Source: Anaerohalosphaeraceae bacterium
Lineage (GTDB): Bacteria > Planctomycetota > Phycisphaerae > Sedimentisphaerales > Anaerohalosphaeraceae
Assembly: GCA_037479115.1 (NCBI GenBank)
Contig: JBBFLK010000005.1
Coordinates: forward strand, 62,001 to 126,000
Direction of reading: 5' to 3'
Length of the DNA stretch: 64,000 nucleotides
The first letter of the stretch is position 1. Each line of letters opens with the position of its first letter. The notes under the pieces were generated by a model. That model was not told where the DNA came from. It saw only the letters and a program-made list of their open reading frames with translations, and searched no databases. Below are positions 360 to 17,677 of this stretch, in pieces. The translations under genes were made by a program, and so were the position numbers.

Positions 360-414
360 CGTTTTCCTCGTTCGAAACCGTCTTGCCGAAATCGCACAGT
401 TTTTCTCCTTTAAA

Positions 415-441
415 TTATCGGCAGCAAAACCCTTTCCTGTA
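415..441 (-). promoter_or_regulatory. Sigma-28 (FliA) promoter for fliD
   Basis: Read on the minus strand: TACA, 15 bases, GCCGATAA. The -10 element is a perfect match to the FliA consensus, the -35 matches TAAA at three of four bases and the spacer is exact. It sits about 56 bases upstream of the fliD start codon in the gap after the giant gene. A weaker GG-N10-GC (sigma-54-like) arrangement overlaps it at 424-437, but the sigma-28 match is better. The cognate sigma factor gene lies at 36926-37711. Confidence 0.75.
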
Positions 442-459
442 ATCTTTCTTCCGCCGGCT

Positions 460-3400
460 TCACATCTGAAAAACCAGTTCGCGGTCCGGACGCTCTGCTT
501 CCAGCTGGTGGAGGATTTGCTGAAGCATTTGCCGGCTGTCCTCGGACAAATTCAGTGTTTTATCGGACAGCAAATCCCGACATATTCGAACCGCTTGTCG
601 GACATTCTTCTCTTGGATTGCTTCCTGGATGAACTGGAAACCTTCTCGGACCAAAATTTCCGCCCTTTTTCGTCTGTATTTTTCGGCACATTGGGCAAAA
701 AGTTCCCCGTTTCTGTCCGCATAGGTCTCCGCATGTTTTTCAAAAATGGAAACTACATAATCCCAAAAAATCCGCCGGCGTTCATACGCATCGCGCTCCG
801 CCGCCGCAGCGGGACACAGCTGCTCCGGAGAATACCGTTCCAGCATTTCCTCCAGACAGCGAACCGTAATGGAATGACGCTGCTGAAAGCAGACCGTGTT
901 GGCATCAGATAATCTTCGATAGAAATAATCGGAAATCCCCCCGACCATTTGAAACCGTATCTGAGGTCCGCAGCGGCACAGGAAATCAAAATCCTCCACA
1001 TTGTCCAGTTCTCTCAACAGGCCGGTCTTTTCGAACAGGGCCCGCCGCTTCAGCGAGCCGGCATTCGGAATCGGCGAATTGCCCCGGGCAAACAGCAGAG
1101 TCGGAAGAACCGCGGAATTGTTGATTGGTTCATACTTCCACACAATTCCTGTCGGCTGGCCGGCCTCATTGACCAACGTCAGTTTTTCGGGATAATAATA
1201 ATCATATCCCGGATTCTGCACGGCAAAAGCGACCATCCGCTCCAGATAACTCGGCCCGATGAAATCATCCGAATCAATCATCATCACAAAATCGCCGCGG
1301 GCCTCTCGGATTGCCCGATTTGAGGCAGCCGCCGCATTCTTGTGCGGCTGGGAGAAAAATCGGATTCGTCGGTCCCGAAACGACTGCACAGTCTTCGCCG
1401 TGCCGTCTGTACTGCCGTCATCCACAATAATCAGCTCAAAGTTTTCGTAGGTTTGAGCCAAAACGGATTCAATCGCCCGCCGGATGAACCGCTCTGTATT
1501 GTACGCCGTCATACAGATACTCACCAAGGGAGTCGAATCCAGCCGGCAGCACAAGTCAGAAGCCGATGAAGACGAAAGCGGCTCTGATTCTGGTTCAGAC
1601 GCCAACGCATATTGACCGAGAACACCGTCTTTTTTCAGAACAGAGACGACCTGCTGAATCGGGGCGTCTACCGCAAGCCACAAAACGATTTCATTGACTG
1701 TCTGAGAACGAACTGTTGGAGGAACAGCAATCTTCTGAATCAGCAGTTCCCGGTTTTCCCGGAGAAGCCAAACCAAAAACTGAATATGGAAATCCTTCTG
1801 AAGGGCTTCCCGAAGCTTCTGGCCGAATACCTCATTCGGATTCCGTTTCTCCTCGGCGGCTGCCGGCTGACTTCGCCGCCAAAGGGCGTTGATTTTGGCC
1901 CGTCCCCAGTACAGCCACCCGGAAGCAGGCTGATGGCTCCCAAGACTCAGCGAGTTCGGAACCTGGCGGATCAGATACAGCGGCTCCGGAACAAACCAGA
2001 TGCCTGTCACCTCCTCCATCTTATGATAGATATCTTTGTCCTCTGCACTTTCCAGTTCGATATCGTGCAGCGGAGTCCTGAAATAATCCTTCCGTTTGTA
2101 GGTGCGAAATGCGCTGATAAACCCGCCTGCCTCCAGCGTCGTCTGACCGGGAGGAATCGGCCGGCAGAAACCGAGCCTTATCGGCTTCAGGTCCTGGTCG
2201 CAAAGAATATGCTGCGAATAAATAAAACCGCATTCGGGATGCGCCTCGTGGGCCTCGAGCATTCGTTCCAGAGCCGTCGGAAGCAGGGCGTCATCGCTGT
2301 CCAGTTCTCCGAACACCTCAGCCCGAACGGCCGCTGCACCGGTCAAAATCGCCTGCGAGGCCCCCCGCCGAACCGGATGACGAATCAGCCGGATACGCGG
2401 GTCGGACAAATAAGACTCAATGATTTCCACAGAATTGTCTGTGGAGGCATCATCTACAATAATCAATTCCCAATCCGATATCGTCTGAGTCAGAACCGAC
2501 TCGATAGCCTGACGAATATACGGCCCTTTGTTGTAATTGCGCATAATCAGAGAAAACCGAGGTCTGGAACCGTCCAACGGCTTCCGAAGGCTTTCTTTCA
2601 TGCCTGATACAGCGTGTGGGCCTTTGTCCGCTGCCGGGTTCTGAATCCCACCGGCGGTTTCCTCCGATTCCGGCACAAACGGCCGGCGAACGTATCCGCA
2701 GGCATTTGCGTACAGAGCACGAATCAGCTCATCCTCGGCTCTTCCGGCCCCGGAACTGTTTTCAATCCCGTTGGGATTCTGGTAATAGAGCCCCAAAACC
2801 TCCGGCACCAGCATCAGTTTGCGGGTCTGGGAAATCCGCAGGGCAAACTCGTAGTCGCCGGAGGATTTCAGACGGCCGTCAAAATACCCGTATTCCTCAT
2901 GCACATCCCGGCGCCACATCGGCTGCGGTCCGCAGTAATACTTCTTCAGCAGCAGCTCCCGCGAATACGGCGGAAGCTCCATTACCCGAGAGGGCGTCTT
3001 GTTCCGCCAGGTTTGATGGGGAATCTGCGTAATATAAAAATGCGAATACACATAGCTGACATCGGGATTCTGCTCCAGAACCGAGGCCAGTTTTTCCAGC
3101 ATGTCCGGCGCATGGCGGTCATCCGTATTGGCATTGGTAATGTATTTTCCCCGGGCCAGCCGGATTCCCCGATTCCACGCCGCATAAACCGTTTCCCGCT
3201 CTTCCGTACGGACATACCGAATGTTCGGATAGCGGGCCTGAAACTCCTGAACAATCGCTCGTTCGTTCTGCCGGGAACCGCTGTCCACAACAATGATTTC
3301 CATTGCCCCCTTCTGAAAAAGCGTCTGTTCAACCAGGTCCTGCAGACATCCGCGGATGAATTCCTCGCTGTTGTAGGCGGAAACAATCGCGGACACCAGA

Positions 3401-6400
3401 CAGTCCCCGCTGCGCCCGTCGGACAGAGACCGGCCCAGAACATCCTCAATATCCAGACCTTGGAAATACTCCGGCCCGTATTGTTTCAGCCAATCCCGAA
3501 CCTGCCGTTCATACCAGGGATTGGGACGCTGATACACCTTCGGGTCAAAATCGGCATAGTGCCGGAACCACTCGGGGTCCGCCGGTTCCAGATGAAGGTC
3601 CCGTTCATCCTTGCTGGGGGCATAGAGTTTGTTGATCTGGTCCACAGGCTTCTGCGGGTTGCGAATCCGCTCCAGACACCGATACCAGGCCTGCTTCCAA
3701 AGCAGATTGTCCCAGTTGACAAACTGGAAGTGCAGCACGCCATGTGAATACCCCTGGAGGGTTAATTTTCGTCCCCGCAGACTGGAAGGAACGCGCGGCG
3801 TGTGAATAAAATCGGAGGCATACGAACACTGCCCGTCGTCGCAAAAGACAAAGGGCTTGTAGTTGTTTGTCCAGACCGACCCATCCCGGCGATACTGGTG
3901 CGGACTTCGCCACAGAGCAATCCAGTTCATCCACAAGTGGTCTCCGGGCTGCATCGCCAGAATCATGTTCCGCAGACAATTGTCCGTCAGAAAATTGGAG
4001 GTAAAGGCCTCATCGGCATCCAGTACGATAAAATGGGTTCCGCCGATTTCCCGGCCCGCCAGCAGCACCCGGTTTCGGTCGCCCGGTTCATCCCGGAACC
4101 AGCAGTCTTTGGTCAAAATCCGCTCCACCCGGCAGCTTTCCGCCAGACCCCGGACAATCTCCAGCGTCCGGTCTTCGGAACAGTCATCCAGAAAAACAAT
4201 CGCATCCGTAAATTGCGACAGCAGCCGCAGGCATTGGCCGATAATCGGCTCTTCGTTCCGCGCCGTCACCAGCCCCACAATTTTGGGCCTCCGTTCCGCC
4301 GGTTTTTCCAATGCTGCCGCAGGAAGGATGCTCAGGTACGGTCTGATGCGGGGCACGTCCGCCCTGTTTTTCGGCTCCGTACGGTTTGACTTCATCCGGA
4401 AGAGTTCCTGCAGTGAAACAAACTTCAGCCCTTCAAAATAAAAATAATTCTCCGGATTGAAAACAACCTCGTCGAGCGGCTTTTGATGATACACGGCGGC
4501 CTTGTTGTAACTTTCCAGCCGGCAGGAAGCTTTTGCCGGCAGAGCCTCATATCCCACATGCAGATAATCAATATCCCGTGCCGGCCGGATTCCATAGGCC
4601 GCCATCACCGAACTTCCGTCAATGCAGAAGCACTCCGGGTCGGCACCGCTTTGCTCCAGAAGCGTCCGATATTCCTGCAGCTGACGGTGAAACGATTCAA
4701 AATACACCGTTTCCGCATGATTCAGAAAATGGAGGCTGTTCTCGTTAAAACACAGGCCCGCCAGCCGAAGGGTTTCTTCATAGGAGTCATTAATATGAAC
4801 CGCATCTTTATTCGAACCGAACAGCTCTCGAATCTCCTGCTTGCAGCTCCGAACCGCCTCCGGAGAATCCGCTTCAATCAGATACACCCGAAGCGGTCCC
4901 CTTCCGCGAAAACAGTTGACGGCCTTGTCCTGATATCCCCGAAAACCGTCGGACGGACTGCCGGTCCAGTGTTCACCCAAATAGGCATGTTTGATATAGA
5001 AAAACGGTCCGTTTTTCCTCAGAACAAGCTCTTTTCGATACACAAGCCGAGCATACCGGCACAGAATGGAAACAATCTCCTCCTCCCGACCCTCGGCACA
5101 GGGAAAGACGGATACAATGTATGTGTTTTTTTTGATTTTGCAGTATTCATAAGCCATTGCATCCGCATACTTGGGCTCCAGTCCCCGCTGCAGAAACCAT
5201 GCATAATTGTATCGGGAGGCCGGACGGTCAAAAACGGCCGTGTACACATCCTGTCCGGTCAGGTAAGCCGCCGCAACCCGATGGCTTCCGTCGATAATCG
5301 TCCCGTTCTGATCGACCGGAAGCAGCGAGCGCGTCGGGTCAAACCCCTCCGCCGCTAAAGACTCCAGCAGAGAATCATACCGTCTTAAAAAGGCCTCAGG
5401 GCCCGCCTTGCCGGACCCGTCTTCTTCCAAAAAGTTGTTGAAAACCTTCAGATGAGCCAGATAAACCCGCCGACCCCAGTCGCTTTTCAGCCGCTGCCGA
5501 TAAAACCGCCCATAAAGAATTTTGGCTGTCAGGTCAAACCGCTCGGCACAAACCAGCGCAGACGGGGAAAGACGCTGCTTTTTCACAAGCCCTTGCTCCG
5601 GAAGATATCCGATTCGAAACAGATGCGGGTTGAGCTGAGAACGAATACTTTCAATCCGGACGAAAGACTCGTCGATAGGTTTCGTCTGCACAAGCCGTTC
5701 ATTCAGCCAGAAGGCGTTGCCGCTGCCGTTTCCGAATTTATGGTCCAGCCCGATTCCGCCCAGCACAAACCCCCGCCCGGCCAGAAAACCTTCCAGGTCA
5801 ATCAGTCTGGCCTGTCCTTCATACAGTGCGGCATACAGCCACACTTCCAGAAACAAAATGCTGCAGTTGGCCAGAACCCGCCTGGCCCCGCGCAGCACCG
5901 ACAATTCCGCCCCCTGGACAGCGCACCACAGCAGGTCCACCGGCTTGTTTTTCAGCGGCTCAAACTCATCCAGCCGAATGCACTCCACCGGAAATGTTTC
6001 CTGAGAGCGAATGCCGAACTGCTCGGCTATTTCCTGTCCGAAATCTCCGCGGCAGCCGGACCGAAGCGGCAAAAGAGAACCCGTCCCCGGCAGATTGTTT
6101 TCATAAAAAACCATCGTCCCCTTCCGGTCGGAAACCGCAAAGGGATAACAGTGAACCCGCTGCTCGGAGCGGTATCGCTGCTGGAGCAGGGCAAACGTCC
6201 TCGGATTCGGCTCAAAGGCAAAGATTTCCGCACGGGGATAACGCCGCAGAAATCGCTCGATTTCCTGCCCCAGATAGGCCCCCACAATCACCATCCGCAA
6301 AGGAGCATCCTGCGGCTTGCCGATCAGAGAGCACAAATTCTCTTCGACATCCTCCTGAATTTCCTGATACGGCTCTTTCCGCTGTCCTGTATAATTTTTT

Positions 6401-7605
6401 GCGGACGCTCCGCCCTGAATCGGCTGAATGTCGGCAAAAAAAAGATCCTGCCGATTATCCCAAATCAGACTGTATCCATGCGAAGAAACATACCGAAGAA
6501 TGTCCTGCCGCTGCGAGCCGTACTCCACAACAATCAGCTGCGGCCTGTATTTCCTGAAATCCAGTCCCTGCAGCACCTCCAAGTCATGCCCTTCGGTATC
6601 GATGGAAAGCAGCGCCACATCCTCCAGCCCCTGTTCTTCCAGAATCTCCGTAAGGGTTTTGGCTTCAACCGTTTCCTTCCTCCAGCGGGCTCCATAGGCC
6701 TTCGTCCAGCGGTCCCTCTGCGAACCGTCCAGCGAAGCCACATCGCTGCCCCAGTCCGGCAGATGCGGGTACTCCGACACGTACAGCTGGGCCGTTCCGC
6801 TCCGACTGGATACGGCCGCCCGAATACACCGCACATCCCAGCCCAGCCAGGCCCGTCGAAGTTTCTCAAAATTGGCCTCTGCCGGCTCAATGCACAGCCC
6901 CGCCCAGCCGTGCCGTTCCGCCAGCCGCCGGACATTGCTGTAGTGAATGCCGTCAAATGCTCCCACCTCCACAAACACCTTGCACCGGGGCCTTCGCTCC
7001 GCAAAATACCGTTCTATCAGTTCATCCTGACCATTCTGGGCATAATAACCGCGCAGATGCTTGGGCAGTTCCCGGGCATACCAGAATTCCGGATTCAGCG
7101 CCAGCACCGTCCTGCAGGCCGCTTCTGCCGCCTCTGTCCGGCCCAGCTTTGCCGCCGCCAGCGCCATCAGCCAAAAATATCTCCAGTTCCTCGGGGATTC
7201 AGCCGCCAAATCAGAAGCCGCGCTCAGGAGATGCTCAAACAGACAGGACGGATAAACCCGCAGGCATGGGTCCTGAAGAATGCGAACGGCCTCTTCTGTG
7301 CGGTTCCGAAGGTAGTCCGAGAAATCTCCTGTCTTTCCCTGCACGGAGGACACCCAGACGTAAAAAAAAGCGATCTGGGCATTGGACGGCTCCAGCCGAG
7401 CCGCCGTCTCCAGGGCCGTCCGGGCCTCCTTTAGTTGGTTTTTGAGCAGAAAAGCCCGGCCCAGCGAAAAAAAGGCAAAGGCATCCGCGGGCTCCGCCTG
7501 CAGACGGGCCGCACACTCCCGACAGACAGAATCCGCCTCTCCCCGAGCAAGATGCTGTTCAACCTTTTCTTTCCAGTCCGTTGGAATAGACAAAGCTGTT
7601 TTCAT
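460..7605 (-). CDS. Giant multidomain protein: TPR, two FkbM-type methyltransferases, ParB/Srx-like and nucleotidyltransferase-like region, four GT2 glycosyltransferases
   Basis: A 2381-residue protein. Visible modules in order: TPR-like helices (about 15-190); FkbM-type SAM methyltransferase (about 200-400, VFVEVGAFDG); second methyltransferase-like module (about 435-630, MVIVGAYLGQE); a ParB/sulfiredoxin-like segment with DGSHR near 770; a nucleotidyltransferase-like segment near 995-1080 (GSSVMAAYGIRPARDIDYL); then four GT2 domains starting near 1106, 1402, 1682 and 2027. All four GT2 modules keep an acidic motif (LDADE, NTDDRH, DSDDALL, DSDDF). No signal peptide or membrane segment is seen, so it is probably cytoplasmic. 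Its position between flagellar chaperone-like and fliD genes suggests it builds a complex methylated glycan on flagellin or hook proteins; this is inference. The ATG has GGGA upstream. An assembly fusion is unlikely because the frame is open throughout. Confidence 0.85.
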   Translation of the reverse strand: MKTALSIPTDWKEKVEQHLARGEADSVCRECAARLQAEPADAFAFFSLGRAFLLKNQLKEARTALETAARLEPSNAQIAFFYVWVSSVQGKTGDFSDYLRNRTEEAVRILQDPCLRVYPSCLFEHLLSAASDLAAESPRNWRYFWLMALAAAKLGRTEAAEAACRTVLALNPEFWYARELPKHLRGYYAQNGQDELIERYFAERRPRCKVFVEVGAFDGIHYSNVRRLAERHGWAGLCIEPAEANFEKLRRAWLGWDVRCIRAAVSSRSGTAQLYVSEYPHLPDWGSDVASLDGSQRDRWTKAYGARWRKETVEAKTLTEILEEQGLEDVALLSIDTEGHDLEVLQGLDFRKYRPQLIVVEYGSQRQDILRYVSSHGYSLIWDNRQDLFFADIQPIQGGASAKNYTGQRKEPYQEIQEDVEENLCSLIGKPQDAPLRMVIVGAYLGQEIERFLRRYPRAEIFAFEPNPRTFALLQQRYRSEQRVHCYPFAVSDRKGTMVFYENNLPGTGSLLPLRSGCRGDFGQEIAEQFGIRSQETFPVECIRLDEFEPLKNKPVDLLWCAVQGAELSVLRGARRVLANCSILFLEVWLYAALYEGQARLIDLEGFLAGRGFVLGGIGLDHKFGNGSGNAFWLNERLVQTKPIDESFVRIESIRSQLNPHLFRIGYLPEQGLVKKQRLSPSALVCAERFDLTAKILYGRFYRQRLKSDWGRRVYLAHLKVFNNFLEEDGSGKAGPEAFLRRYDSLLESLAAEGFDPTRSLLPVDQNGTIIDGSHRVAAAYLTGQDVYTAVFDRPASRYNYAWFLQRGLEPKYADAMAYEYCKIKKNTYIVSVFPCAEGREEEIVSILCRYARLVYRKELVLRKNGPFFYIKHAYLGEHWTGSPSDGFRGYQDKAVNCFRGRGPLRVYLIEADSPEAVRSCKQEIRELFGSNKDAVHINDSYEETLRLAGLCFNENSLHFLNHAETVYFESFHRQLQEYRTLLEQSGADPECFCIDGSSVMAAYGIRPARDIDYLHVGYEALPAKASCRLESYNKAAVYHQKPLDEVVFNPENYFYFEGLKFVSLQELFRMKSNRTEPKNRADVPRIRPYLSILPAAALEKPAERRPKIVGLVTARNEEPIIGQCLRLLSQFTDAIVFLDDCSEDRTLEIVRGLAESCRVERILTKDCWFRDEPGDRNRVLLAGREIGGTHFIVLDADEAFTSNFLTDNCLRNMILAMQPGDHLWMNWIALWRSPHQYRRDGSVWTNNYKPFVFCDDGQCSYASDFIHTPRVPSSLRGRKLTLQGYSHGVLHFQFVNWDNLLWKQAWYRCLERIRNPQKPVDQINKLYAPSKDERDLHLEPADPEWFRHYADFDPKVYQRPNPWYERQVRDWLKQYGPEYFQGLDIEDVLGRSLSDGRSGDCLVSAIVSAYNSEEFIRGCLQDLVEQTLFQKGAMEIIVVDSGSRQNERAIVQEFQARYPNIRYVRTEERETVYAAWNRGIRLARGKYITNANTDDRHAPDMLEKLASVLEQNPDVSYVYSHFYITQIPHQTWRNKTPSRVMELPPYSRELLLKKYYCGPQPMWRRDVHEEYGYFDGRLKSSGDYEFALRISQTRKLMLVPEVLGLYYQNPNGIENSSGAGRAEDELIRALYANACGYVRRPFVPESEETAGGIQNPAADKGPHAVSGMKESLRKPLDGSRPRFSLIMRNYNKGPYIRQAIESVLTQTISDWELIIVDDASTDNSVEIIESYLSDPRIRLIRHPVRRGASQAILTGAAAVRAEVFGELDSDDALLPTALERMLEAHEAHPECGFIYSQHILCDQDLKPIRLGFCRPIPPGQTTLEAGGFISAFRTYKRKDYFRTPLHDIELESAEDKDIYHKMEEVTGIWFVPEPLYLIRQVPNSLSLGSHQPASGWLYWGRAKINALWRRSQPAAAEEKRNPNEVFGQKLREALQKDFHIQFLVWLLRENRELLIQKIAVPPTVRSQTVNEIVLWLAVDAPIQQVVSVLKKDGVLGQYALASEPESEPLSSSSASDLCCRLDSTPLVSICMTAYNTERFIRRAIESVLAQTYENFELIIVDDGSTDGTAKTVQSFRDRRIRFFSQPHKNAAAASNRAIREARGDFVMMIDSDDFIGPSYLERMVAFAVQNPGYDYYYPEKLTLVNEAGQPTGIVWKYEPINNSAVLPTLLFARGNSPIPNAGSLKRRALFEKTGLLRELDNVEDFDFLCRCGPQIRFQMVGGISDYFYRRLSDANTVCFQQRHSITVRCLEEMLERYSPEQLCPAAAAERDAYERRRIFWDYVVSIFEKHAETYADRNGELFAQCAEKYRRKRAEILVREGFQFIQEAIQEKNVRQAVRICRDLLSDKTLNLSEDSRQMLQQILHQLEAERPDRELVFQM

Positions 7606-7650: not shown

Positions 7651-7995
7651 TTATTTTCCATAAGCCGACAGCGTCCGAATCCCCTCCCGAATCTGCCGCA
7701 GTTTGTCCGCCACCTCCTGCCGTTCGGCGGCAATCACCAGACAGATGTCCTGATACAGTCCCTGGATTGTCTGCCTGCAGGCCGCATATTCAGGCCGCTC
7801 CAGAATCCCTTCTCCGGCAAGCTGTTCGGCAAACCGATGCGATTCCTCCGCCAGCTGAACCGCCCCATCCAGGTCATATCGGCGCAGCTTCTCCAGCTGC
7901 CGCTCCAGCAGCTCGGTCAAATAGGCCAGCTTTTGCCGGTCTTCTGTCGTCCCCTCGGCCGCCCGAGTCTCCGGTAACTCCGTCGTTTTGTTCAT
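7651..7995 (-). CDS. Small helical FliT/FlgN-like flagellar export chaperone (putative)
   Basis: 114 residues, almost entirely charged and helical, with a heptad-like Leu pattern (ELLERQLEKLRRYDLDGAV) and a C-terminus KLRQIREGIRTLSAYGK. That ending resembles small flagellar chaperones of the FliT/FlgN type, which bind late export substrates in the cytoplasm. No enzyme motif is present. Its ATG overlaps the stop of the TPR gene upstream (ATGA), so the two are probably translationally coupled. It lies between the glycosylation genes and fliD, and FliT normally binds FliD. A true FlgN candidate exists separately at 17707. Family assignment is by context and general pattern only. Confidence 0.5.
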   Translation of the reverse strand: MNKTTELPETRAAEGTTEDRQKLAYLTELLERQLEKLRRYDLDGAVQLAEESHRFAEQLAGEGILERPEYAACRQTIQGLYQDICLVIAAERQEVADKLRQIREGIRTLSAYGK

Positions 7996-8621
7996 CGCTC
8001 ATTCCCGCCTTTCTGTTGGGCCTTGTGCTCCAGTTCCTCCAGCAGCTGCCGGGCATCGGCATGCTCCGGTTCCAGCGCCAGAACATCCCTCAGCAGCTCC
8101 TGAGCCTGCCGTATTTGGCCTTCCTTTGCATACAGTGCCGCCAGACAGAACATCACGGATGTGTCTCCCGGATGCATCTGCAGATACACCTGCAGATAGT
8201 GGATGACCTGGCGAAACGTCCCCATCTGGCAGGACACCTGAAAGAGCCCCAGCAGCGCCGTCAGATGATTGTTGTCCAGTTCCAGACTCTTCAGATAATA
8301 CTCAAACGCCTCCTGCAGCCGTCCGCACTGCTGGGCAATCATCGCCAGTCCCGCCCAGGCCCGGCTGTTGCACGCATCCAGCCGAAGCGCCACGCGAAAC
8401 GCCAGTTCGGCATCCTCCAGCCGCCCCTGCTGCAGTTCAATCACACCGGTGCCCACATACGGCCCCGCCTCATCCGGCTCCAGCCACGAGGCCTGTTCAT
8501 AACATCGGCGGGCATTCTCATATTCGCCCACCGAGGCATAACAGTCTCCCAGTTCCTTGACAATCTCATACCGCTGCATCCATCCCTGGTCGGGATTCTG
8601 CAATGCACCCGCTAAATCCAT
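7992..8621 (-). CDS. TPR-repeat protein of the flagellar glycosylation island
   Basis: 209 residues made of about five tetratricopeptide repeats, e.g. GDCYASVGEYENARRCYEQA, then units ending in LEPDEA, LDACNSR and LEPEHAD. The open frame extends upstream to 8912, but that part overlaps the GT2 gene and has no coding character. The ATG at 8619-8621 has a strong AGGAGA site and is chosen as start. It overlaps the end of the GT2 gene by 10 bases and the next gene by four. TPRs are protein-binding scaffolds. The neighbours suggest it organises glycosyltransferases or their flagellar substrates; no catalytic motif is seen. Confidence 0.8.
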   Translation of the reverse strand: MDLAGALQNPDQGWMQRYEIVKELGDCYASVGEYENARRCYEQASWLEPDEAGPYVGTGVIELQQGRLEDAELAFRVALRLDACNSRAWAGLAMIAQQCGRLQEAFEYYLKSLELDNNHLTALLGLFQVSCQMGTFRQVIHYLQVYLQMHPGDTSVMFCLAALYAKEGQIRQAQELLRDVLALEPEHADARQLLEELEHKAQQKGGNER

Positions 8622-10267
8622 AGTCGGCTCTCCTGGCTTGACAGCACCGGCTCGTCGGCGGCCGGCTTGGCTGCTCTTCGTCGAATTGCTGAAGTCTGCG
8701 TTTTTCTCGCCTCCGTTCCATCCAAAATCCGGCAGGCGCGCTGGTAGCAGTCCATCGCCCGCCGGTAATCCTTTTGCTCCTGAAAGATGCGGGCGGCCAG
8801 CTGCAGGGTAAAAACCGTCGGCCGGGCTGTCTGCACCGGCTCGAGCACCTCCAGCGCCTGCCGAAAACGCCCCGCTTTGTACAGGGCATACGCCTGCTGG
8901 GTCCGCATCCACAGCTCATTCCCGAAATGCTCCGCCAGATAGGCATACAGGGAAGCGGCGGATTCCCATCCCCCCTCCCGCTGAAGCTGTTCTGCCGCCG
9001 CCAGCATCCGGTCAAACTGAAACGGGTAGTCCTCCGTCTTCGGCCTGCGAATCGAAAAGCCGGCCGCCTCCAGCGACGCCCGCAAAGGCAAACGGCCGTA
9101 CTGCCGACGGGCCTGCCGAAGCTCCTCTGTGCGGAAAACCGCCCCCCAGCAGTCTTCGGTCGCTTCCACCAGCTCAAACGCCTCCCGGGGCTGTCGGCTG
9201 TTCAGCAGCGGACAGAGGGAGCGTTCCAGCCATGCCGTTTCATCCATCTCCGCCGAAAGACCGGTCGGGACCACTGCGGCATACGTCCCTTCGCAAACCG
9301 ACAGCATTCGGTCCAGACGCGCTTCGAGAGAGCTGCCCGCTTCCGCCGGCACAATCGTCACATTGGGAACCAGCGTACGCCATCCGGCGGCCTCCTCCGG
9401 CGCCAGCGCTGCATAAATCCGCTGCGGATAAAAGGTATGCGACCACAAGTCCCGAAGCGTCCGATCCAGCAACTCATCCGCACGAGCCGCCAAAATCAGA
9501 ACCGACAAATCCTCCACGCACGGCCACGGCTTGGGCGGACGCGTCGTCCGGATGGTCAGCACATTTCGAAGATAATCCGAGACATTTTTCCGTCGCCGAA
9601 CGGAAATCCGGTCGCTGTCGCCGACCGGTGTATAGTACTCCCCCGTAATCGTCGGAATATGAAGGAAATCCGTATAAAAACACAGTTTTCGATGCAAATC
9701 CCAGTCTATCAGGACATTGAGATTTTCGTTGTATCCCCCCGCCCGCTCCAGCAGTTCCTTGCGATGCAGAATGCTCACATGAAGCACATGATTAAACTGA
9801 AGCATCATCATCCGGTCAAAATCCCGTGAGACCTCCACGTGCTTGGCAAGCACAATGCGCCGCCCGTCCGGCCTGACGCGGCAGTACACCTTGTACAAAT
9901 CGCTGTACACCGCCCCGCAGCGGTCCTGGCTTTCAATCGCCTCAACCAGCGTCTCCAGATGATGCGGGTAATACTTATCATCGTCATCCAGATGACACAG
10001 ATACTCTCCGCGGGCATAGCCCAGCGCCTCATTGAACGAATACCCCGGCCCGCGGTTTTCCGCACGGTTGATAAAGGTCAGCCGGCGGTCTGAAAACCGC
10101 CGCACCACCTCATCCACCGGACAGCCCCCGTCCCGAACCAGCACAATCTGAAAGTGCGGCCAGGTCTGAGCAAACACGCTTTCCAGCGCCTCGGCCAGAT
10201 AGCCGGGCCGGTTGTACGTGTTCATCAGAACCGTCACCAGCGGACCATGTGAAGAACGTCGAGCCAT
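8612..10267 (-). CDS. GT2 glycosyltransferase with C-terminal TPR repeats
   Basis: 551 residues. Residues 8-230 form a GT-A family 2 domain: VTVLMNTYNRPGYL at the start, IVLVRDGG as first acidic motif and HLDDDD near 113 as the metal/nucleotide-sugar site. A middle region (about 250-430) looks like a second, degenerate glycosyltransferase-like or linker domain. Residues 430-520 hold TPR-like repeats (AAEQLQREGGWESAASLYAYL; ALYKAGRFRQALEVLEPV). GT2 enzymes transfer sugars from NDP-donors in the cytoplasm. It lies 7 bases after the GT9-like gene in the flagellar glycosylation run, so flagellin or hook-protein glycosylation is the likely role. Confidence 0.85.
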   Translation of the reverse strand: MARRSSHGPLVTVLMNTYNRPGYLAEALESVFAQTWPHFQIVLVRDGGCPVDEVVRRFSDRRLTFINRAENRGPGYSFNEALGYARGEYLCHLDDDDKYYPHHLETLVEAIESQDRCGAVYSDLYKVYCRVRPDGRRIVLAKHVEVSRDFDRMMMLQFNHVLHVSILHRKELLERAGGYNENLNVLIDWDLHRKLCFYTDFLHIPTITGEYYTPVGDSDRISVRRRKNVSDYLRNVLTIRTTRPPKPWPCVEDLSVLILAARADELLDRTLRDLWSHTFYPQRIYAALAPEEAAGWRTLVPNVTIVPAEAGSSLEARLDRMLSVCEGTYAAVVPTGLSAEMDETAWLERSLCPLLNSRQPREAFELVEATEDCWGAVFRTEELRQARRQYGRLPLRASLEAAGFSIRRPKTEDYPFQFDRMLAAAEQLQREGGWESAASLYAYLAEHFGNELWMRTQQAYALYKAGRFRQALEVLEPVQTARPTVFTLQLAARIFQEQKDYRRAMDCYQRACRILDGTEARKTQTSAIRRRAAKPAADEPVLSSQESRLWI

Positions 10268-10274
10268 CCCTGTC

Positions 10275-11174
10275 TTACGAAACAGATTCTTCAGCGGGCT
10301 TCTCCTTCGCCCAGGAAATCTTCAGCCGTTCCGCCGCCTCCAGCACCTCCTGCGGCTGAGCCGGACAAACCGACACCATTCCGCTGCCTTCCTTCATCGG
10401 CCAGCAGTCCCAGGAATTCTTTCCCAGATACACCATCGGCAGGTGAATCGCCGCCGCCAGCGCCGCAATCTCCTCATCCTCGCTGATCAGCAGTTCACAC
10501 TGCCGAAGAACCGTTGCAATCTCACGGGCCGTCAGCTTGCCGCGAAGGTCCTTGGCCTCCGGAGCCGCCGGACCGCTGCCTCCGCCCACATACACAAGAC
10601 TGCCCCCCCATTTTTCTCTCAGCAGACGCCCCACTTCGGCTCCCTGAGACGACAGCCAGCTCGGACAGTCCGCCGAAATCGGCGCCAGCACAATACGCGG
10701 ACGGGCCAGTTTCGACAGGCCGAACCGCTGGGACCGGACAAAATCAAAACTATTTAAAAGGATTTGAGGCGTCTGCTGCTCCAGACGCACGCCCAGCTGT
10801 CCTGCCGCATCAAACATCCAGTCCATACCGGCTCCTTTCCGCGGTGCACCCCGCAGGTATATCACCTTGTCAAACGATTCCTTCAGCTCTCCGGCATCGC
10901 CGTAGGCCAGACTCCGTACCCCGGGATGCCCGATGTATAAATCCGCATATTCATGGCAGATGGTAATTTCCTGCTCCGAGGCAAACGTCTGGCCGAACAG
11001 ACGAATCGCCGGTTCAGCCAACAGGGCCGCCAGCAGCCCCGCCGGCGGCACAACCAGCACCCTGCGAAGGGCCCGCTCGGAACCCGCCGGTCCGTCTGAC
11101 CGGCTCGGCGGCTCCGCCGACAAAGCAGATGTTTCCGCTAAAAAGGGGCCGCAGAAGGACTCCTTCCCGAACAC
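10275..11174 (-). CDS. GT9/heptosyltransferase-like protein (putative)
   Basis: 299 residues. The C-terminal half resembles the ADP-heptose/GT9 acceptor fold: PRIVLAPISADCPSW, then GGSLVYVGGG, LTAREIATVLRQCELLISEDEEIAALAAAIHLPMVYLGKN, the usual pattern in which an acidic loop meets an LA...PVV..G strand. The first 30 residues are low complexity. The start is a GTG (11172-11174) lying inside the end of the preceding GT gene (37-base overlap). Ribosome-site support is weak, so an internal start such as the GTG before LVVPPAGLL is possible. It sits between two TPR-glycosyltransferases in the flagellar island. Family assignment is moderate; substrate unknown. Confidence 0.55.
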   Translation of the reverse strand: MFGKESFCGPFLAETSALSAEPPSRSDGPAGSERALRRVLVVPPAGLLAALLAEPAIRLFGQTFASEQEITICHEYADLYIGHPGVRSLAYGDAGELKESFDKVIYLRGAPRKGAGMDWMFDAAGQLGVRLEQQTPQILLNSFDFVRSQRFGLSKLARPRIVLAPISADCPSWLSSQGAEVGRLLREKWGGSLVYVGGGSGPAAPEAKDLRGKLTAREIATVLRQCELLISEDEEIAALAAAIHLPMVYLGKNSWDCWPMKEGSGMVSVCPAQPQEVLEAAERLKISWAKEKPAEESVS

Positions 11175-12820
11175 GAGCAGACCGCCTCGGTTTCTTCCGA
11201 TGAAGCCGACTTTCCCGAATTCTTCAGCCGCTGCGCCGCCTCCAGTGCCCTGTGGGCCAGTTCCTCAATCGAAGCCGAGACGGCCGGCTGCGAACCAGCC
11301 GCCGCCGGTTCCGACGGCTGCAGACGGTCGGAAATCGGAGAAGAAACAGAGACCGCCGGCTCCAGCGGTCTGGATGCAGCGGCCTGCACAGAGCCCGGCA
11401 TCGGCGAGCCGCTTCCTGCTCCGCTCGAAACAAAAAGCCGGCTGCGTTCCAGCTCCGAAAGAATCCGAACCAGCGGTAAATACGCCTGGATTGGGGAGAA
11501 GCGGTCGAGCACCCAGGTGCGGTAGCGCATCGGTTCATACGCCCCTTCCAGAATCTGCCGGCAGAAATCTTCCGCCAGAACAAATACAAACTCCTTCTCC
11601 ACATATTCGCACACACCCGGGAAATGGTGAACAACCGGACGCAGCCCCGCCGCCATCCCCTGAAGAACCGACGGCATCGACCGACCGTCCACCGACGCCG
11701 ATACGATGTAATGCTTATCCTTCAGCCACCGGGCCCAGCTGCGGGGAACTCCGTCCAGAAAAACGACATTCTCCAGCCCCATCGCCTCAATCAGCGATTC
11801 GACATAAGCCCGCACGCTCTCATCCTCAAATTCTCCGGCCAGGTGAAGCCGCATATCCGCATCCAGATAATGGAGCTTCTGCATACAATGAAGCAGAAAC
11901 ATCGGATTCTGATGAGCCGTCCACGGTCCGACGGCCGCCAGCCGTTTGCCCTTTCGGCGTTCGGCAAATACAACTGTCTCGGCATCCACACCCGGTCCCA
12001 TCGTCAAAAGCTGCACGGAGGAAGGAAAACCGCCCAAACGCAGGCGAATCTGCTCTGCCGCCGATTGGGAAGGAACCAAAACGGCACGAACCCCCGCCCA
12101 GTCTATCCGCTCCAGCGCCGGATGATTCAGGTCCTCATAGTCCAGAACCAGCACCGCCGGGATGTCCCGATGCCGTTCATCCAGAAAGGCCCGGCTGATG
12201 CCGGTGAAAATTGAAATACTCCGCGAATGCCCTCCCTCCGGCACCGCAGGCATCGTCCCGCCGGTACACACTGACAGCGGATACCGAGCCTCCAGATATC
12301 CCCGAAGGCCTTCCAGACGCCGCTGCTGCTCGGCATACAGACAAATCGAAACCCGTTTGCTGCGGATAATTTCAATCATCGGACGAAGGATTTCCTGATT
12401 CGGAGCCAGCCGCAGCGAATACAGAAGCATTTCGATCGCGGGCCCCAGCGAACCCTTATCCACGAAACAATTCGCTATCCGATTCAGTATATCCACATTC
12501 AGAATCTCTCGGTCCGCCATCTCATCCAGCAGTCCGACGGCCTTTTCCGGCTGATGCTCGGCGATATAGGCCTCACACAGATTAAAAAGAACCTGGGTGA
12601 GCATGTCACCGCTGCAAAGACTGCGAGCCTTCTGAAAGTACTCGATTGCCTCGCGGCCCCGATGCAGACAGTACAAAATCGTACCGGCGTCATTGAGGGC
12701 TTCCGCATCATTCGGCTGCTCCCTCAAAAATCCCTGCAGAAGCCCCAAAGCCTGCTCAAAACGCCCTTGTTCGGCCAGTTCTGCGGCCTGCCTGACCGCT
12801 TGTCTATCGTGTCCAGACAT
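11138..12820 (-). CDS. TPR-GT4 glycosyltransferase fusion
   Basis: 560 residues. The N-terminus (about 1-150) has TPR units (AAELAEQGRFEQALGLLQGF; EAIEYFQKARSLC; PEKAVGLLDEM). A GT-B, GT4-like domain follows (about 160-450), with AVGPWTAHQNPMFLLHCM and GENVVFLDG-type strands and the ending SASVDGRSMPSVLQGMAAGLRPVVHHF, the acceptor-proximal E/S-x7-E region in a weakened form. The last 110 residues are Ser/Ala/Pro-rich and disordered. The frame extends to a TTG at 12835, but the ATG at 12818-12820 has GAGGAG at the right distance and is chosen. It is a paralogue of the neighbour at 12973-14421. Likely adds sugars to flagellar proteins. Confidence 0.8.
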   Translation of the reverse strand: MSGHDRQAVRQAAELAEQGRFEQALGLLQGFLREQPNDAEALNDAGTILYCLHRGREAIEYFQKARSLCSGDMLTQVLFNLCEAYIAEHQPEKAVGLLDEMADREILNVDILNRIANCFVDKGSLGPAIEMLLYSLRLAPNQEILRPMIEIIRSKRVSICLYAEQQRRLEGLRGYLEARYPLSVCTGGTMPAVPEGGHSRSISIFTGISRAFLDERHRDIPAVLVLDYEDLNHPALERIDWAGVRAVLVPSQSAAEQIRLRLGGFPSSVQLLTMGPGVDAETVVFAERRKGKRLAAVGPWTAHQNPMFLLHCMQKLHYLDADMRLHLAGEFEDESVRAYVESLIEAMGLENVVFLDGVPRSWARWLKDKHYIVSASVDGRSMPSVLQGMAAGLRPVVHHFPGVCEYVEKEFVFVLAEDFCRQILEGAYEPMRYRTWVLDRFSPIQAYLPLVRILSELERSRLFVSSGAGSGSPMPGSVQAAASRPLEPAVSVSSPISDRLQPSEPAAAGSQPAVSASIEELAHRALEAAQRLKNSGKSASSEETEAVCSCSGRSPSAAPF

Positions 12821-12972
12821 CTTCAAACTCCTCAAAGAGGTTGTTAATCCGCATCCATATCACCGGTTGTGCAAATCCTATGCCCGACTTCAAAATCGCC
12901 TTTTTTGGACGAAAACAAACCCATTTCCCGCCCTTTGAACCGACCCTTTGTCAAATCTTCGAACACCCTCCT
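12821..12972 (-). other. Gap of 150 bases between the two TPR-GT4 genes
   Basis: This is the longest gap inside the flagellar run before fliD. I see no good sigma-28, sigma-54 or sigma-70 promoter and no hairpin with a T-run. The ribosome site of the downstream gene (GAGGAG) lies at its end. It could be a decayed intergenic remnant or hold a weak internal promoter. Confidence 0.4.
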
Positions 12973-14421
12973 TCAAATCAAAACAGGTTCAGCCGAAACG
13001 TCCTGTCGCTGCCCTTCAAACCGGCCCTGTTCGAAGGAGCTGAGCAATTCATCCACGAGGCGAAGCGTCCGATTTATCGGATATCGCCTCTCTACATACT
13101 CCCGATAGGTATATGGTTCATAATCGTCCGATAATATCTGCTGGCAAAACTCTTCGGGTGTCGTAAACAGACAATTCTTGTCGTAAATCTCGTCGGCCCC
13201 GGGGAAATGATAAATCACCGGTTTCAGGCCGGCCGCCATCGCCTCCAGCGCCCCCATCCCCTGACTTTCAATCACACTGGTCACCGCCAGATAATGCTTG
13301 TCGGCAAGCCAGGAAAAAATATCCTCCTGCCAGCCTTCAAAATGAACCACCCCTTCCAGACCCAAAAGCCGAATTTGATGCTCCAAATACTGTTTCAAAA
13401 GCAAATCATCCATTCGTCCGGCCATGTAGAGCTGATACTCCGGGTCGATCTCATGCAGCTGATACATACACTGGAGCAGAAACATCGGGTTCTTAACCAT
13501 TCGGAGATTCGCCACAAAGGCAATCTTTTTCCCCCGCTCCCGCCGGACAAACGGTATCTTGTCCACATCAATTCCATTGGGAATCCGGACAATCGCCACC
13601 TGTTTTCGAATATCGGGCACCCACTCTTCGAGGGCCTTTATCACATACGAATTCCCGACCGTAACCAGCACATCCACATTCGGCCAGTGAATCTGTTTGG
13701 GCCAGGGCATATAGGCTTCATAGCGATGCAGCCGAACCACAATTCGGCAGCTCTTGGGCAAATGCGTGCCGATCTGGGCCAGATTCGTCGCCCACTCAAA
13801 CCAGGAAATATCGCTCCAATTCATCAAAGCCTGCACGTCCTCCGGACGGGAACCGCTGAAAACCCGAACCGGATAACGCGGCTGGAGATAGTCCAGAAGC
13901 GGCTTGAGAAATGTCGGACCGTCCGCTCCGCAGAAGAAGGCCAGCTTGGGCCGGCAGGCCTTCAGCTGTTCAATCGGTGCCTCATAAATCAGCGGATTTT
14001 TGGATGTGCTGCGGCCCATTTGAAAGAGATCCATCGCACGAGCCGGCTGATGCTGACGGAGAAAACAGCCCGCTGCTTCCAGAACCGCCGAATCGCGCCA
14101 GACGCCCTCCTGCCGCATCCGACGAAGCAGACCGGCAGCCTGGTCCGGACGATTCAGCTTCAGCCAGACCTCCGCCAGGTCGGCCAGGGCCTCTTTCGGA
14201 CCGTCCAGCAGAGAAAGACACCGCTGAAAACACCGAACCGCCTGACGAGAATCCCCTTCCGCCATCGCCAGGCGGCCCGCCAGATGCCAGCCCGGTCCGA
14301 AGGAGGGACGCAGCCGCAAATAGGAATCCAGGCAGGAGCGGGCGGCGGAGATGTGTCCCTCCTTCGCCAGATGCACCGCCTTCTGATACAGTCGAGTCGG
14401 AGATTCTGTTTCTACTGACAC
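12973..14421 (-). CDS. TPR-GT4 glycosyltransferase fusion, paralogue of the downstream gene
   Basis: 482 residues. TPR-like repeats cover about 8-150 (KAVHLAKEGHISAARSCLDS; QAVRCFQRCLSLL). A GT4-like GT-B domain covers about 155-460: FANLRMVKNPMFLLQCMYQL, AGRMDDLLLKQYL, VVHFEGW, and VTSVIESQGMGALEAMAAGLKPVIYHFPG. The last segment contains the conserved Glu-rich E-x7-E donor site (ESQGMGALE). The start is a GTG (14419-14421) with AAAGGA upstream. It comes 14 bases after flgL on the same strand, so it is likely co-transcribed with the hook-associated proteins. Its donor site looks intact, unlike that of its paralogue at 11138-12820. Confidence 0.85.
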   Translation of the reverse strand: MSVETESPTRLYQKAVHLAKEGHISAARSCLDSYLRLRPSFGPGWHLAGRLAMAEGDSRQAVRCFQRCLSLLDGPKEALADLAEVWLKLNRPDQAAGLLRRMRQEGVWRDSAVLEAAGCFLRQHQPARAMDLFQMGRSTSKNPLIYEAPIEQLKACRPKLAFFCGADGPTFLKPLLDYLQPRYPVRVFSGSRPEDVQALMNWSDISWFEWATNLAQIGTHLPKSCRIVVRLHRYEAYMPWPKQIHWPNVDVLVTVGNSYVIKALEEWVPDIRKQVAIVRIPNGIDVDKIPFVRRERGKKIAFVANLRMVKNPMFLLQCMYQLHEIDPEYQLYMAGRMDDLLLKQYLEHQIRLLGLEGVVHFEGWQEDIFSWLADKHYLAVTSVIESQGMGALEAMAAGLKPVIYHFPGADEIYDKNCLFTTPEEFCQQILSDDYEPYTYREYVERRYPINRTLRLVDELLSSFEQGRFEGQRQDVSAEPVLI

Positions 14422-14435
14422 CGCCGAAATCCTTT

Positions 14436-15623
14436 CTATTTCAGAAAATCCAGCAAAGAGGTCGAGAAAATCTTGGAAGCCGCCGTCAGCGACATCTCAT
14501 ACAAAAGCTGATGACGCGCCAAATCTATCGACAGCTGCGTTATATCTGCATCCAGCAGGCGGCTGATTTCATCCTCCGAATTGACTTTCATATCCTCCAT
14601 ACTGTCTTTGAGGTTCGTGAGCGTTTCAATCCGCCCTCCGATAATCGGAAACGAGCGAACCAGCTTCTCTTCCACCTCCTGCATCGAAACCAGCGTCGCC
14701 CCCAGCAGATTCTCCAGCGTTTTGTCGTCCAGGTTCTGCGAATTGTTCAGCAAATCGCGGGCGGAAATCAGAATATTGAAAATGTCATAGGTACCGGGGA
14801 CACGAACCGGCTCTGTTCCTGTCTGCCGAATTTCGCTGACATCCACATACAGAACCTCTCCGGTCCGGGAATGAATGACCGCCGCATTGGTTTCCGTTCC
14901 GCTGACCGTCACCCAGGAAGCCCCTCCGTCAATGGAGAGCTGCCAGCTGCCCGGCCCTCCCTCCACCGTCAGATACAAATCCCCGCGGACGCTCGACGTG
15001 CCGCTGCCCGCCTTGGCGCCGGTGGACCCGTAAAAAACGGGTGTCTGGCGGCTGTCATCCCGAAACAGGCGATCCCCCACCAGCAGGGCCGAAATCTCCA
15101 TCCCGTCAATCACCTCCACCTTCTGCTCCTCCTGGCTGCCCTGATAAATCACCCGGACAATCCGGCCGTTTCCGTCCCGTTCGACAGCATACGGCGCCTG
15201 CTCGGCCTTTGCCCCTCCGAACAGATACTGACTGAGTCGGGTGGAGTTGGCGAACGAAATGACCTGTTCGAGTGCGTTGTTGATTTCGGCCGCCAGCGTG
15301 CGCCGAACCTGGGAACTCGTCGTGCCCGACATCGTGGACGCCAGCGAAGCACGAGCGTTGGCCATCTCCTTCATCATACTCTGCACCACGGAGGAGCTCA
15401 GGTCCAGAATGCTGATGGCCTCCCCCATGGTTTTGACATACACCTCTTTCTTCCGTTTGTCGGTCTGAAAACCGAGAATCTGGTTGGCCCGGCTCGGGTC
15501 ATCCGATATCCGGTTCAAATCCTGACCCGTGGCGGCCTTCTGCTGAAGAATATTCAGCTTTTCTGAATGCCGCGTGACGGCCCAATAGGTTGTCTTGAAT
15601 ATCGATTCGAGGGAATAACTCAT
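14436..15623 (-). CDS. flgL: Flagellar hook-associated protein 3 (hook-filament junction)
   Basis: 395 residues with the FlgL/flagellin-type N-terminal D0 helix: YWAVTRHSEKLNILQQKAATGQ, then RISDDPSRANQ. This is the conserved S..kl..l..q.asG..i...sDdP segment. The C-terminal helix (DLARHQLLYEMSLTAASKIFSTSLLDFLK) is the matching D0 partner. FlgL and FlgK form the junction between hook and filament and are exported by the flagellar type III system. It lies 26 bases after flgK and leads directly into the glycosylation genes. Length is at the upper end for the family because of a variable middle domain (about 150-290). Confidence 0.92.
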   Translation of the reverse strand: MSYSLESIFKTTYWAVTRHSEKLNILQQKAATGQDLNRISDDPSRANQILGFQTDKRKKEVYVKTMGEAISILDLSSSVVQSMMKEMANARASLASTMSGTTSSQVRRTLAAEINNALEQVISFANSTRLSQYLFGGAKAEQAPYAVERDGNGRIVRVIYQGSQEEQKVEVIDGMEISALLVGDRLFRDDSRQTPVFYGSTGAKAGSGTSSVRGDLYLTVEGGPGSWQLSIDGGASWVTVSGTETNAAVIHSRTGEVLYVDVSEIRQTGTEPVRVPGTYDIFNILISARDLLNNSQNLDDKTLENLLGATLVSMQEVEEKLVRSFPIIGGRIETLTNLKDSMEDMKVNSEDEISRLLDADITQLSIDLARHQLLYEMSLTAASKIFSTSLLDFLK

Positions 15624-15649: not shown

Positions 15650-17677
15650 TCAGGTCAGCAGGCCCATAATCGTATCAATCGACGAATTGACGCTGTTCAT
15701 GTATTTGGCCATTGCCTGAAACAGCCGCTCAAACATAATCATCAGGCCGGCCTGTTCATTGACATCCACGCTGCTGACAATATCCCGCTGCTCCTCCAGA
15801 CTGCGGACAATCTCCTGCGTATTGTTCGACTGCATCTGGAGAATCGAAATCTTCTGTCCGATATCCACGGCAATCTGGCGGTAATATTCCTTGGTCGTCA
15901 GCCCGTTCAAAGACAGCAGCCCCTGGTCCCCCAGCTGCGCCATCGCAGCACAGTTGCGATTGTCAGCCCCTTCCACTCCGGTCGCAACGGCAATTCGCGA
16001 GACATTCCGCCGAATGTCATCCGACACATCAATCGAAGCGGCATCCCGCCCGCTGAAAAAGCAGTTGATGCCCACCGCCGCCAGAAACCCCGATGTATCC
16101 GAGTTCGCCAGGGCCTCGAACGCGATCACTTCCCCGTCATTCAGATAGCCCGGGCTGATGCCGTTGGTCCCCAGCGTGATGGAAATGCCGTGCTCCAGCA
16201 AAATCGCTGTTCCCGGCACATACTCCTGCCCCAGCTGAACGGTGGCCACAACGGTGCCCGAGCCGTCCCGGACTTCCAGCGACATTGTTCCGTTTCCGAC
16301 GGCCAGGGTCTGTCCGGGCGGATTCGTCCGAACGGTGCAGGTATAAACCTGATTGACCGACCCGGTATATTGACCGGAAAGGGTGATTGTCGGCGGCTTC
16401 TGGTCGTCCCCCGAACCGGCTCCGGCCAGCACCGGCGGCACGGTATAGGTCGGTGTGCTCAGCACACCCGGCAGAAAGTCAAACCGGTAACCCGTATTGG
16501 CCACAATCTGCAGCCGTCCGGCATAAACCCCCGTCGCTCCATCCAGCCCCGGAATCGACGCCAAATCCGCCGCCACGCTTTCCAGCGTGCTGGTTTCATC
16601 AATACTGACTGCATACCGCCGGGCCGTCCCATCCGGGTCAATCACCCGAACATACAGCGTCCCGGCCGACACCGGCGGCTGAAAATCCGCCGCACGGCTT
16701 TCCGTTATTGTCCAGCCGGTCAGGCTCGTAAAGGAACCCCCGGACCCGATTCCCTGAACATGCAGCCGGTTTATCTGAGAAATCAGCGTCACGGCCAGCG
16801 TATCCAGTTTGTCCATAAAGTCCGCCAGGGTTTCATTCCGCAGCTCCAAAACCGCCCCCAGCGTGCCGTTCTGAAAACGGGTCTCGTAATTCTCCGTTCC
16901 CTCCGCTGCAATTCCCAGACGGCTCTTTCCCCCTTCTTCAACCACCCCCAGTCGAATCGCACTGATATTTGACCCGATGACAATCGGAATCGACGCTACG
17001 GACACATCCACCACTCCGTACTCCCGACGATGGGTCCGAATATCGATGTAGCTGCCCAGCTGTCCAATCAGGGCATCCCGCTGGTCCATCAGATTGCCGC
17101 ACTCCTGCCCCTGAACCCCCAGCGTAAAGATCTCCAAATTCATCTGGGCGATCTGCGAGGCCAGCTGATTGACTTTGGACACAACTTCCTGGGCTTCCGT
17201 ATAAAGAGCATCCTGAAGATTGTTCACAATGGACGCCAGATTGCGGAACTGGCTGGTGAGTGTTTCCGCCGACGCCAGAACCGACGTCTGATAGTTCACA
17301 TCCTGCGGACGCAGAGACAGACTGTGCAGAGACGCGTAAAAATTGTCCAGACTCTCACTGATGCTGCTCAGCGACAGCTCGCCCATCGCACTTTCCACAA
17401 TCCGCAGGGCATCCAGCTTGCGGGACATCGAAGACAGCGAGGAATTGTACTGAAGAATCTGCGACTCCAGAAACACATCAATCTGCCGCTGAATCCCGAC
17501 GAAATCCACCCCCTGACCGGTCATCACCCCGTTCATATACGAATCCCGCGCCGGACGCAAATCGACCCGCTGACGGTGATAGCCCGGTGTAGCGGCATTG
17601 GCCAGATTGTTGCCGATGACATTCAGCGCCTTCTGCGCTGCGCTGATTCCGCTCATTCCGATATTATAGCCGGCCAT
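15650..17677 (-). CDS. flgK: Flagellar hook-associated protein 1
   Basis: 675 residues. The N-terminus (MAGYNIGMSGISAAQKALNV, then IGNNLANAATPGYHRQRVDL) holds the classic rod/hook signature NNLANAxTPGY. The C-terminus (SVDVNEQAGLMIMFERLFQA, then MAKYMNSVNSSIDTIMGLLT) is the paired D0 helix. The protein is longer than enterobacterial FlgK (about 550), with a Thr/Gly-rich insertion around 330-520 that would face outward. It forms the first junction ring between hook and filament. It lies 29 bases after flgN, whose product is its export chaperone in other bacteria. Confidence 0.93.
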   Translation of the reverse strand: MAGYNIGMSGISAAQKALNVIGNNLANAATPGYHRQRVDLRPARDSYMNGVMTGQGVDFVGIQRQIDVFLESQILQYNSSLSSMSRKLDALRIVESAMGELSLSSISESLDNFYASLHSLSLRPQDVNYQTSVLASAETLTSQFRNLASIVNNLQDALYTEAQEVVSKVNQLASQIAQMNLEIFTLGVQGQECGNLMDQRDALIGQLGSYIDIRTHRREYGVVDVSVASIPIVIGSNISAIRLGVVEEGGKSRLGIAAEGTENYETRFQNGTLGAVLELRNETLADFMDKLDTLAVTLISQINRLHVQGIGSGGSFTSLTGWTITESRAADFQPPVSAGTLYVRVIDPDGTARRYAVSIDETSTLESVAADLASIPGLDGATGVYAGRLQIVANTGYRFDFLPGVLSTPTYTVPPVLAGAGSGDDQKPPTITLSGQYTGSVNQVYTCTVRTNPPGQTLAVGNGTMSLEVRDGSGTVVATVQLGQEYVPGTAILLEHGISITLGTNGISPGYLNDGEVIAFEALANSDTSGFLAAVGINCFFSGRDAASIDVSDDIRRNVSRIAVATGVEGADNRNCAAMAQLGDQGLLSLNGLTTKEYYRQIAVDIGQKISILQMQSNNTQEIVRSLEEQRDIVSSVDVNEQAGLMIMFERLFQAMAKYMNSVNSSIDTIMGLLT

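Follow-up and report, generated by a model that had tools for sequence, protein, structure and literature searches.

Why a run of glycosyltransferase (GT) genes should lie among the genes for the flagellar hook and filament cap, and what its products would modify, was examined in a 64,000-nucleotide stretch of DNA (the window) from a 3.0 Mb MAG of the class Phycisphaerae, phylum Planctomycetota. On the minus strand, flgE, an unnamed gene, flgF, flgG, flgA, flgH, flgI, an flgJ-like gene, flgN, flgK, and flgL are followed by the genes for TPR-GT4a, TPR-GT4b, a GT9-like protein, GT2-TPR, TPR2, a FliT-like chaperone, and a giant protein, and then by fliD, which encodes a 693-aa protein and extends beyond the window (Table 1). 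The giant gene forms the variable segment of this island and is included in the finding. The genes, their order, and their strand are as the first-pass annotation had them, and the same order recurs in relatives at 65–98% protein identity, which argues against chance. All data were genomic, mostly from MAGs, with ORF-based gene calls. The unnamed gene between flgE and flgF (window 22912-24117, minus strand) encodes a 401-aa protein with no Pfam family above cut-off.

Table 1. Features of the flgK–fliD region, in window coordinates.
Feature	Position	Strand	Basis or remark
flgK	15650..17677	-	TIGR02492, 273.6 bits, above cut-off
flgL	14436..15623	-	TIGR02550, 156.8 bits, above cut-off
TPR-GT4a	12973..14421	-	intact GT4 domain, diverged TPR
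Palindrome TGTTCGAAGATTTGACA, probable activator (UAS) site	12949..12965	-	TGTTTGATATTTATACA identical in 7 relatives
Sigma-54-type -24/-12 promoter GGCATAGGATTTGCA	12870..12884	-	conservation before TPR1-type genes
TPR-GT4b	11138..12835	-	conserved TPR1 domain and catalytically degenerate GT4 domain (pseudo-GT)
GT9-like protein	10275..11174	-	degenerate (pseudo-GT); without TPR
GT2-TPR	8612..10267	-	Pfam; N-terminal GT-A domain, C-terminal TPRs; catalytic motifs kept
TPR2	7992..8621	-	209-aa TPR protein; most conserved and most widespread cassette member
FliT-like chaperone	7651..7995	-	FliT Pfam below cut-off; FliT entries among the top four structure matches
Giant 2381-aa protein	460..7605	-	Pfam; N-terminal TPRs, two FkbM methyltransferase domains, several GT2 domains
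fliD, 5' part	1..359	-	PF02465 at G000:C5:62042-62329; ORF -1722..359

The conservation of this slot was assessed by a class-wide search of 298 genomes with GT4b, after which about 40–50 related loci were read. The nearest named relatives were Phycisphaerae/Planctomycetota MAGs with 66–91% identity in GT4b, and the cassette was found repeatedly between flgL and fliD. The first-pass annotation had held that its interpretation would fall if the same genes lay with LPS or capsule genes, away from flagella, in related genomes; instead, 30 of the 31 full-length or near-full-length GT2-TPR homologues (E < 1e-50) are located in the flgL–fliD slot or beside TPR2. The sole outlier, from G088, is only 29% identical and comes from a genome without a detected FliD. 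GT genes are thus inserted among flagellar genes, with presence or absence and variable content between conserved flanks, and the proposal of a flagellar glycosylation island is well supported by this slot conservation. When the GT2-TPR search was extended to the phylum, only the GT2 half found matches beyond the class; another planctomycete family (f68; G344, G364, G381, and others) encodes proteins of ~1200–1700 aa that contain this half.

Part of the slot persists regardless of the GTs. TPR2 was identified in 66 genomes of the class at E < 1e-40, 59 of which also have FliD, and its dN/dS is 0.06–0.10; translation probably begins with the ATG at 8621, which overlaps the stop of GT2-TPR, the 306-aa ORF being over-extended. 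Five genomes (G116, G146, G265, G087, and G286) have only TPR2 between flgL and fliD, accompanied in four of them by a gene recognised as FliT-like, and roughly ten genomes have a stand-alone TPR1 (~160 aa; a homologue of the GT4b TPR) before TPR2 and no GT. Because they are retained by flgL and fliD in genomes without a GT there, TPR2 and the FliT-like protein, often joined by TPR1, are flagellar constants. The FliT-like protein scored 15.6 bits against Pfam FliT, below the cut-off of 29.5, and of its 28 homologues, four matched FliT (E ≤ 0.01) and four FlgN. FliT entries were among the top four matches to its structure model, with Z 9.3–10.1 (3a7m, Z 10.1; 3h3m, Z 9.5), but SNARE-type helical bundles also reached 8–9. 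Two loci have peculiarities of their own: in G292 a gene for a NarL/FixJ-type response regulator is inserted between flgL and TPR1 (L046 7788-9047), and G087 (L112) is classed in the family of the window while its flagellar proteins group with those of G146 and G158, which suggests transfer of the flagellar operon.

The GTs, on the other hand, come and go together. A GT domain on TPR1 and GT2-TPR are both present in 23 loci and both absent from nine, with exceptions in G241 (TPR-GT4 without GT2-TPR and without an island) and G179 (GT2-TPR without TPR1). In G093, TPR1 carries a stump of the GT N-lobe, and the GT domain was therefore lost in at least this genome. The gap between the FliT-like gene and fliD measures ~0.1–0.4 kb in GT-less genomes and from several to ~40 kb (G105) in others, and in GT-bearing relatives it is filled with GTs, methyltransferases, and sugar genes. 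For the giant protein, a full-length homologue was found only in G042 among the loci read, other relatives having different island genes at this position; its residues ~640–1095, between the FkbM and GT2 domains, had no Pfam match. NeuB/PseI-type synthases are encoded inside the islands of G194 (PseI and PseF above cut-off, with a LegC-type aminotransferase), G105 (NeuC above cut-off, with a NeuB-like protein), and G210. The suggestion that the system is built from different parts than Maf-type modification holds for the window genome, but these relatives have pseudaminic- and sialic-acid genes in the corresponding island. Maf (PF01973) is absent from the window genome and from 32 of the 35 genomes searched, and NeuB/PseI in the window genome gave only partial matches of at most 48 bits, of a kind seen in nearly all genomes and probably representing DAHP synthase. 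Maf-dependent or nonulosonic-acid modification was rejected for the window genome, the glycan probably being of another kind in this species, because neither Maf nor a true NeuB is encoded.

The strongest hint as to the substrate is flagellin length. Flagellins were searched in 34 genomes, and association was tested on 33 genomes, leaving out G134 (L048), in which TPR-GT4 is split across contigs. All 20 cassette-bearing genomes encode short flagellins only (256–324 aa, mostly 269–273), whereas of the 12 genomes that have no GTs at this locus and whose flagellin gene is complete, 11 encode flagellins of 411–438 aa, in which the N and C domains are intact and ~150 extra residues lie in the center. 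The exception, G169, has no GTs and yet a 274-aa flagellin; in G206 the flagellin is interrupted by a contig end. Fisher's test, which ignores relatedness, gave p = 9e-8. On the tree, GT state changes five times and three to five independent contrasts are available, nearly always concordant but too small a number to reach significance (sign test, median p 0.25); the five changes counted from the 23 and nine loci above had G134 among the TPR-only loci.

The flagellin genes themselves sit elsewhere in the genome, away from the cassette, and the substrate could for this reason be a hook-associated protein or FliD. FliT has FliD as its known client. A cassette that glycosylates FlgK, FlgL, and FliD in place of flagellin would fit its position among their genes, in a slot that also includes a FliT-like chaperone, but we regard this as unlikely since it is flagellin, the protein compared systematically for length, whose architecture changes with the cassette. 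In addition, islands near flgL or fliD in Clostridium, Geobacillus, and P. aeruginosa serve flagellin (PMC13317340, PMC5109656, PMC8306008). Flagellin is accordingly kept here as the preferred, if provisional, substrate.

With flagellin as the candidate substrate, the question becomes which members could act as catalysts. The first-pass annotation had taken the GTs to be enzymes and saw TPRs joined to three distinct GT folds. GT4 and GT9 are both of the GT-B fold and GT2 is GT-A, so only two folds occur at the locus, and the GT9-like protein is without a TPR. GT4 is duplicated in the family of the window, and the two copies have diverged reciprocally. Every GT4a orthologue read keeps the EX7E, LHRYEA, PNG, and K-NP motifs, all of which are lost in 10 of 10 GT4b orthologues: both EX7E glutamates (the position reads GRSMPSVLQ in the window), the PNG loop, the donor-site K, and LHRYEA are gone, with replacements that differ between species. 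Relative to single-copy homologues, the GT domain is 48–52% identical in GT4a versus 28–39% in GT4b, and the TPR is 21–32% identical in GT4a versus 41–47% in GT4b. In a TPR1 tree, the GT4b TPR clusters with the single-copy and the free TPR1 sequences and is separated from the window-family GT4a (99/98 support). The GT domain of GT4b nonetheless has a dN/dS of 0.18–0.23, indicative of purifying selection despite motif loss. GT4b is thus probably a conserved pseudo-glycosyltransferase that retains the ancestral TPR along with a sigma-54-type promoter. Separately, the single-copy TPR-GT4 of G262, G174, G214, and G274 (L043, L067, L068, and L075) is half degenerate, having lost the second EX7E glutamate; three of these four genomes keep GT2-TPR, and their flagellins are short where examined.

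The GT9-like protein likewise looks inactive. The window copy has no Pfam match itself, PF01075 being matched by six of 10 aligned homologues, and a Foldseek search with its model recovered GT9 entries (3tov, E 1.8e-11, TMq 0.65; also WaaF 1psw), in agreement with a GT9 fold. The C-terminal D-x-G-x-x-H motif is lost, with SEDEEIAALAAA in the window versus DTGLAHLAAA in L058; the relatives at L057 and L058 keep the GT9 motif, and the window copy retains the fold only. GT2-TPR (551 aa; GT2 at 12–128, TPR at 430–515) has conserved DDD at 95–97 and D188-W-D190. Could GT4b and the GT9-like protein still be catalytic, with active sites of an unusual kind? Purifying selection acts on both, and textbook motifs are dispensable in some GTs; the complete loss among GT4b orthologues with species-specific replacements, and the absence from the GT9-like protein of a motif that its relatives retain, make this quite improbable. 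Activity of all cassette members was ruled out by the same motif losses. With the usual catalytic motifs missing, neither GT4b nor the GT9-like protein is likely to be an active transferase, which leaves GT4a and GT2-TPR as the candidate catalysts.

The cassette had also been described as a single uninterrupted run in which all genes overlap or are closely spaced. This did not hold between GT4a and GT4b, which are separated by 137 nt containing, directly before GT4b, a conserved sigma-54-type -24/-12 element and an upstream palindrome. An element of this type precedes 30 of 37 TPR1-type genes of relatives (TPR-only, single-copy, or GT4b), in addition to the window, and three of five minimal loci beginning with TPR2 (L109, L110, and L112); it was found before none of the 10 GT4a genes of the window family. 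The pattern is not significant by count within the window (two matches versus 0.54 expected), and the evidence for a promoter is its conservation amid otherwise diverged sequence, from which we infer its function. The window genome has an RpoN gene. Because the element precedes TPR1-type genes and never GT4a of the window family, GT4b occupies the ancestral position; GT4a is probably co-transcribed with flgL, and the conserved promoter makes a single uninterrupted operon doubtful. A second sigma-54-type -24/-12 site, GGCATAGATGTTGCA, is located just upstream of the ORF preceding flgE (window 26373-26387, minus strand), and sigma-54 may drive the hook operon as well.

An LPS or capsule locus placed by chance in a flagellar operon is very hard to credit, even though polysaccharide loci often include GT4, GT9, and FkbM families and the island content varies, and was rejected because of the slot conservation; the GT domains are moreover joined to TPR domains that occur by themselves next to flgL as well, and flagellin length follows the cassette. 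On balance we favor, with reasonable though incomplete confidence, a flagellin O-glycosylation cassette built on a conserved flagellar chaperone module, predicted to act in the cytoplasm and to be TPR-guided in the manner of FlmG and GmaR. TPR1, TPR2, and the FliT-like protein would handle flagellar export substrates in the cytoplasm, and the TPR parts would hold flagellin there, by analogy with FlmG (PMC7591256) and GmaR (PMC9638930), while GT4a and GT2-TPR, as the putative catalytic units, would add sugars before export. For GT4b, with its ancestral TPR and promoter retained and its catalytic motifs gone, the most likely role is that of a non-catalytic adaptor presenting the substrate to GT4a or GT2-TPR, and the degenerate GT9-like protein may be a further scaffold. 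The giant FkbM/GT2 protein, whose segment is exchanged between species, would extend and methylate the glycan. As judged from the conserved sites, transcription from the sigma-54 promoter would begin at GT4b and extend through fliD as a second unit. At the sequence level, this reading is based on the order and co-distribution of the genes, on motifs lost while purifying selection continued, on the reciprocal divergence of the two GT4 copies, and on the conserved promoter and the link with flagellin length. That TPRs recruit the enzymes to a flagellar substrate, as had been suggested, is supported indirectly by the survival of TPR1 and TPR2 at loci without GTs and by the binding of flagellins by the FlmG TPR (PMC7591256), if not by way of three folds; as TPR families cross-match, binding partners cannot be read from sequence.

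Several characterized systems resemble the cassette in part. FlmG of Caulobacter crescentus, in which the TPR domain alone binds flagellins and the GT-B domain does not (PMC7591256), shares with TPR-GT4a and TPR-GT4b an N-terminal TPR and C-terminal GT-B architecture (Pfam TPR and GT4-type), as well as the cytoplasmic flagellin O-glycosylation proposed for the cassette. FlmG is one protein, compared here by domain architecture, whereas TPR-GT4 matches Pfam GT4-type models and is a duplicated pair with a dead copy. GmaR of Listeria monocytogenes, which transfers GlcNAc to flagellin (PMC9638930), has an N-terminal GT2 domain followed by TPRs, like GT2-TPR, but is 637 aa in length with an antirepressor domain that binds MogR, compared to 551 aa. 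Searched against the PDB with phmmer, GT2-TPR matched GT2 enzymes and no GmaR chain, the solved GmaR construct being without the GT domain. In Maf-2 systems, a non-catalytic factor, GlfM, is needed for the transferase–flagellin complex (PMC13317340), as proposed for GT4b; GlfM is a separate co-encoded factor, whereas GT4b is a dead GT paralogue in a genome without Maf. Flagellin glycosylation islands or hypervariable regions beside flgL/fliD are already well known from Clostridium, Geobacillus, Enterobacteriaceae, and P. aeruginosa (PMC13317340, PMC5109656, PMC4875605, PMC8306008). Like the cassette, they are variable, flanked by flagellar genes, often near flgL/fliD, and strain-dependent in presence, and they contain GT2, GT4, FkbM, and pseudaminic or legionaminic acid genes. 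The cassette differs in its occurrence in Planctomycetota, the TPR2/FliT-like flank that stays when the island goes, the absence of Maf, the pseudo-GT, and the shift in flagellin length.

Why flagellin glycosylation is so widespread in bacteria is unsettled. We tentatively propose, at somewhat less than even confidence, that glycan and outer domain are interchangeable filament coats in the Phycisphaerae that have been exchanged several times, with sugar-coated, core-only (D0–D1) flagellins in the cassette lineages and flagellins bearing an outer domain of ~150 additional residues in the others, and that reciprocal degeneration of one TPR-GT4 gene yielded a live copy for catalysis and a dead one as adaptor. 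A literature search returned no prior account of flagellin glycosylation loci from Planctomycetota, of a live/dead GT split, or of an exchange of glycan machinery with the outer flagellin domain, and the latter two appear to be new. In H. pylori, flagellin glycans are carried on the outer D2/D3 domains (PMC12880188); here, in contrast, the apparent glycosylators are the genomes whose flagellin has no outer domain. GT4a and GT4b offer a clear example from nature in which a fused enzyme divides into catalyst and adaptor, and because machinery and flagellin length have repeatedly changed together, the substitution of a glycan for an outer domain would be testable among close relatives.
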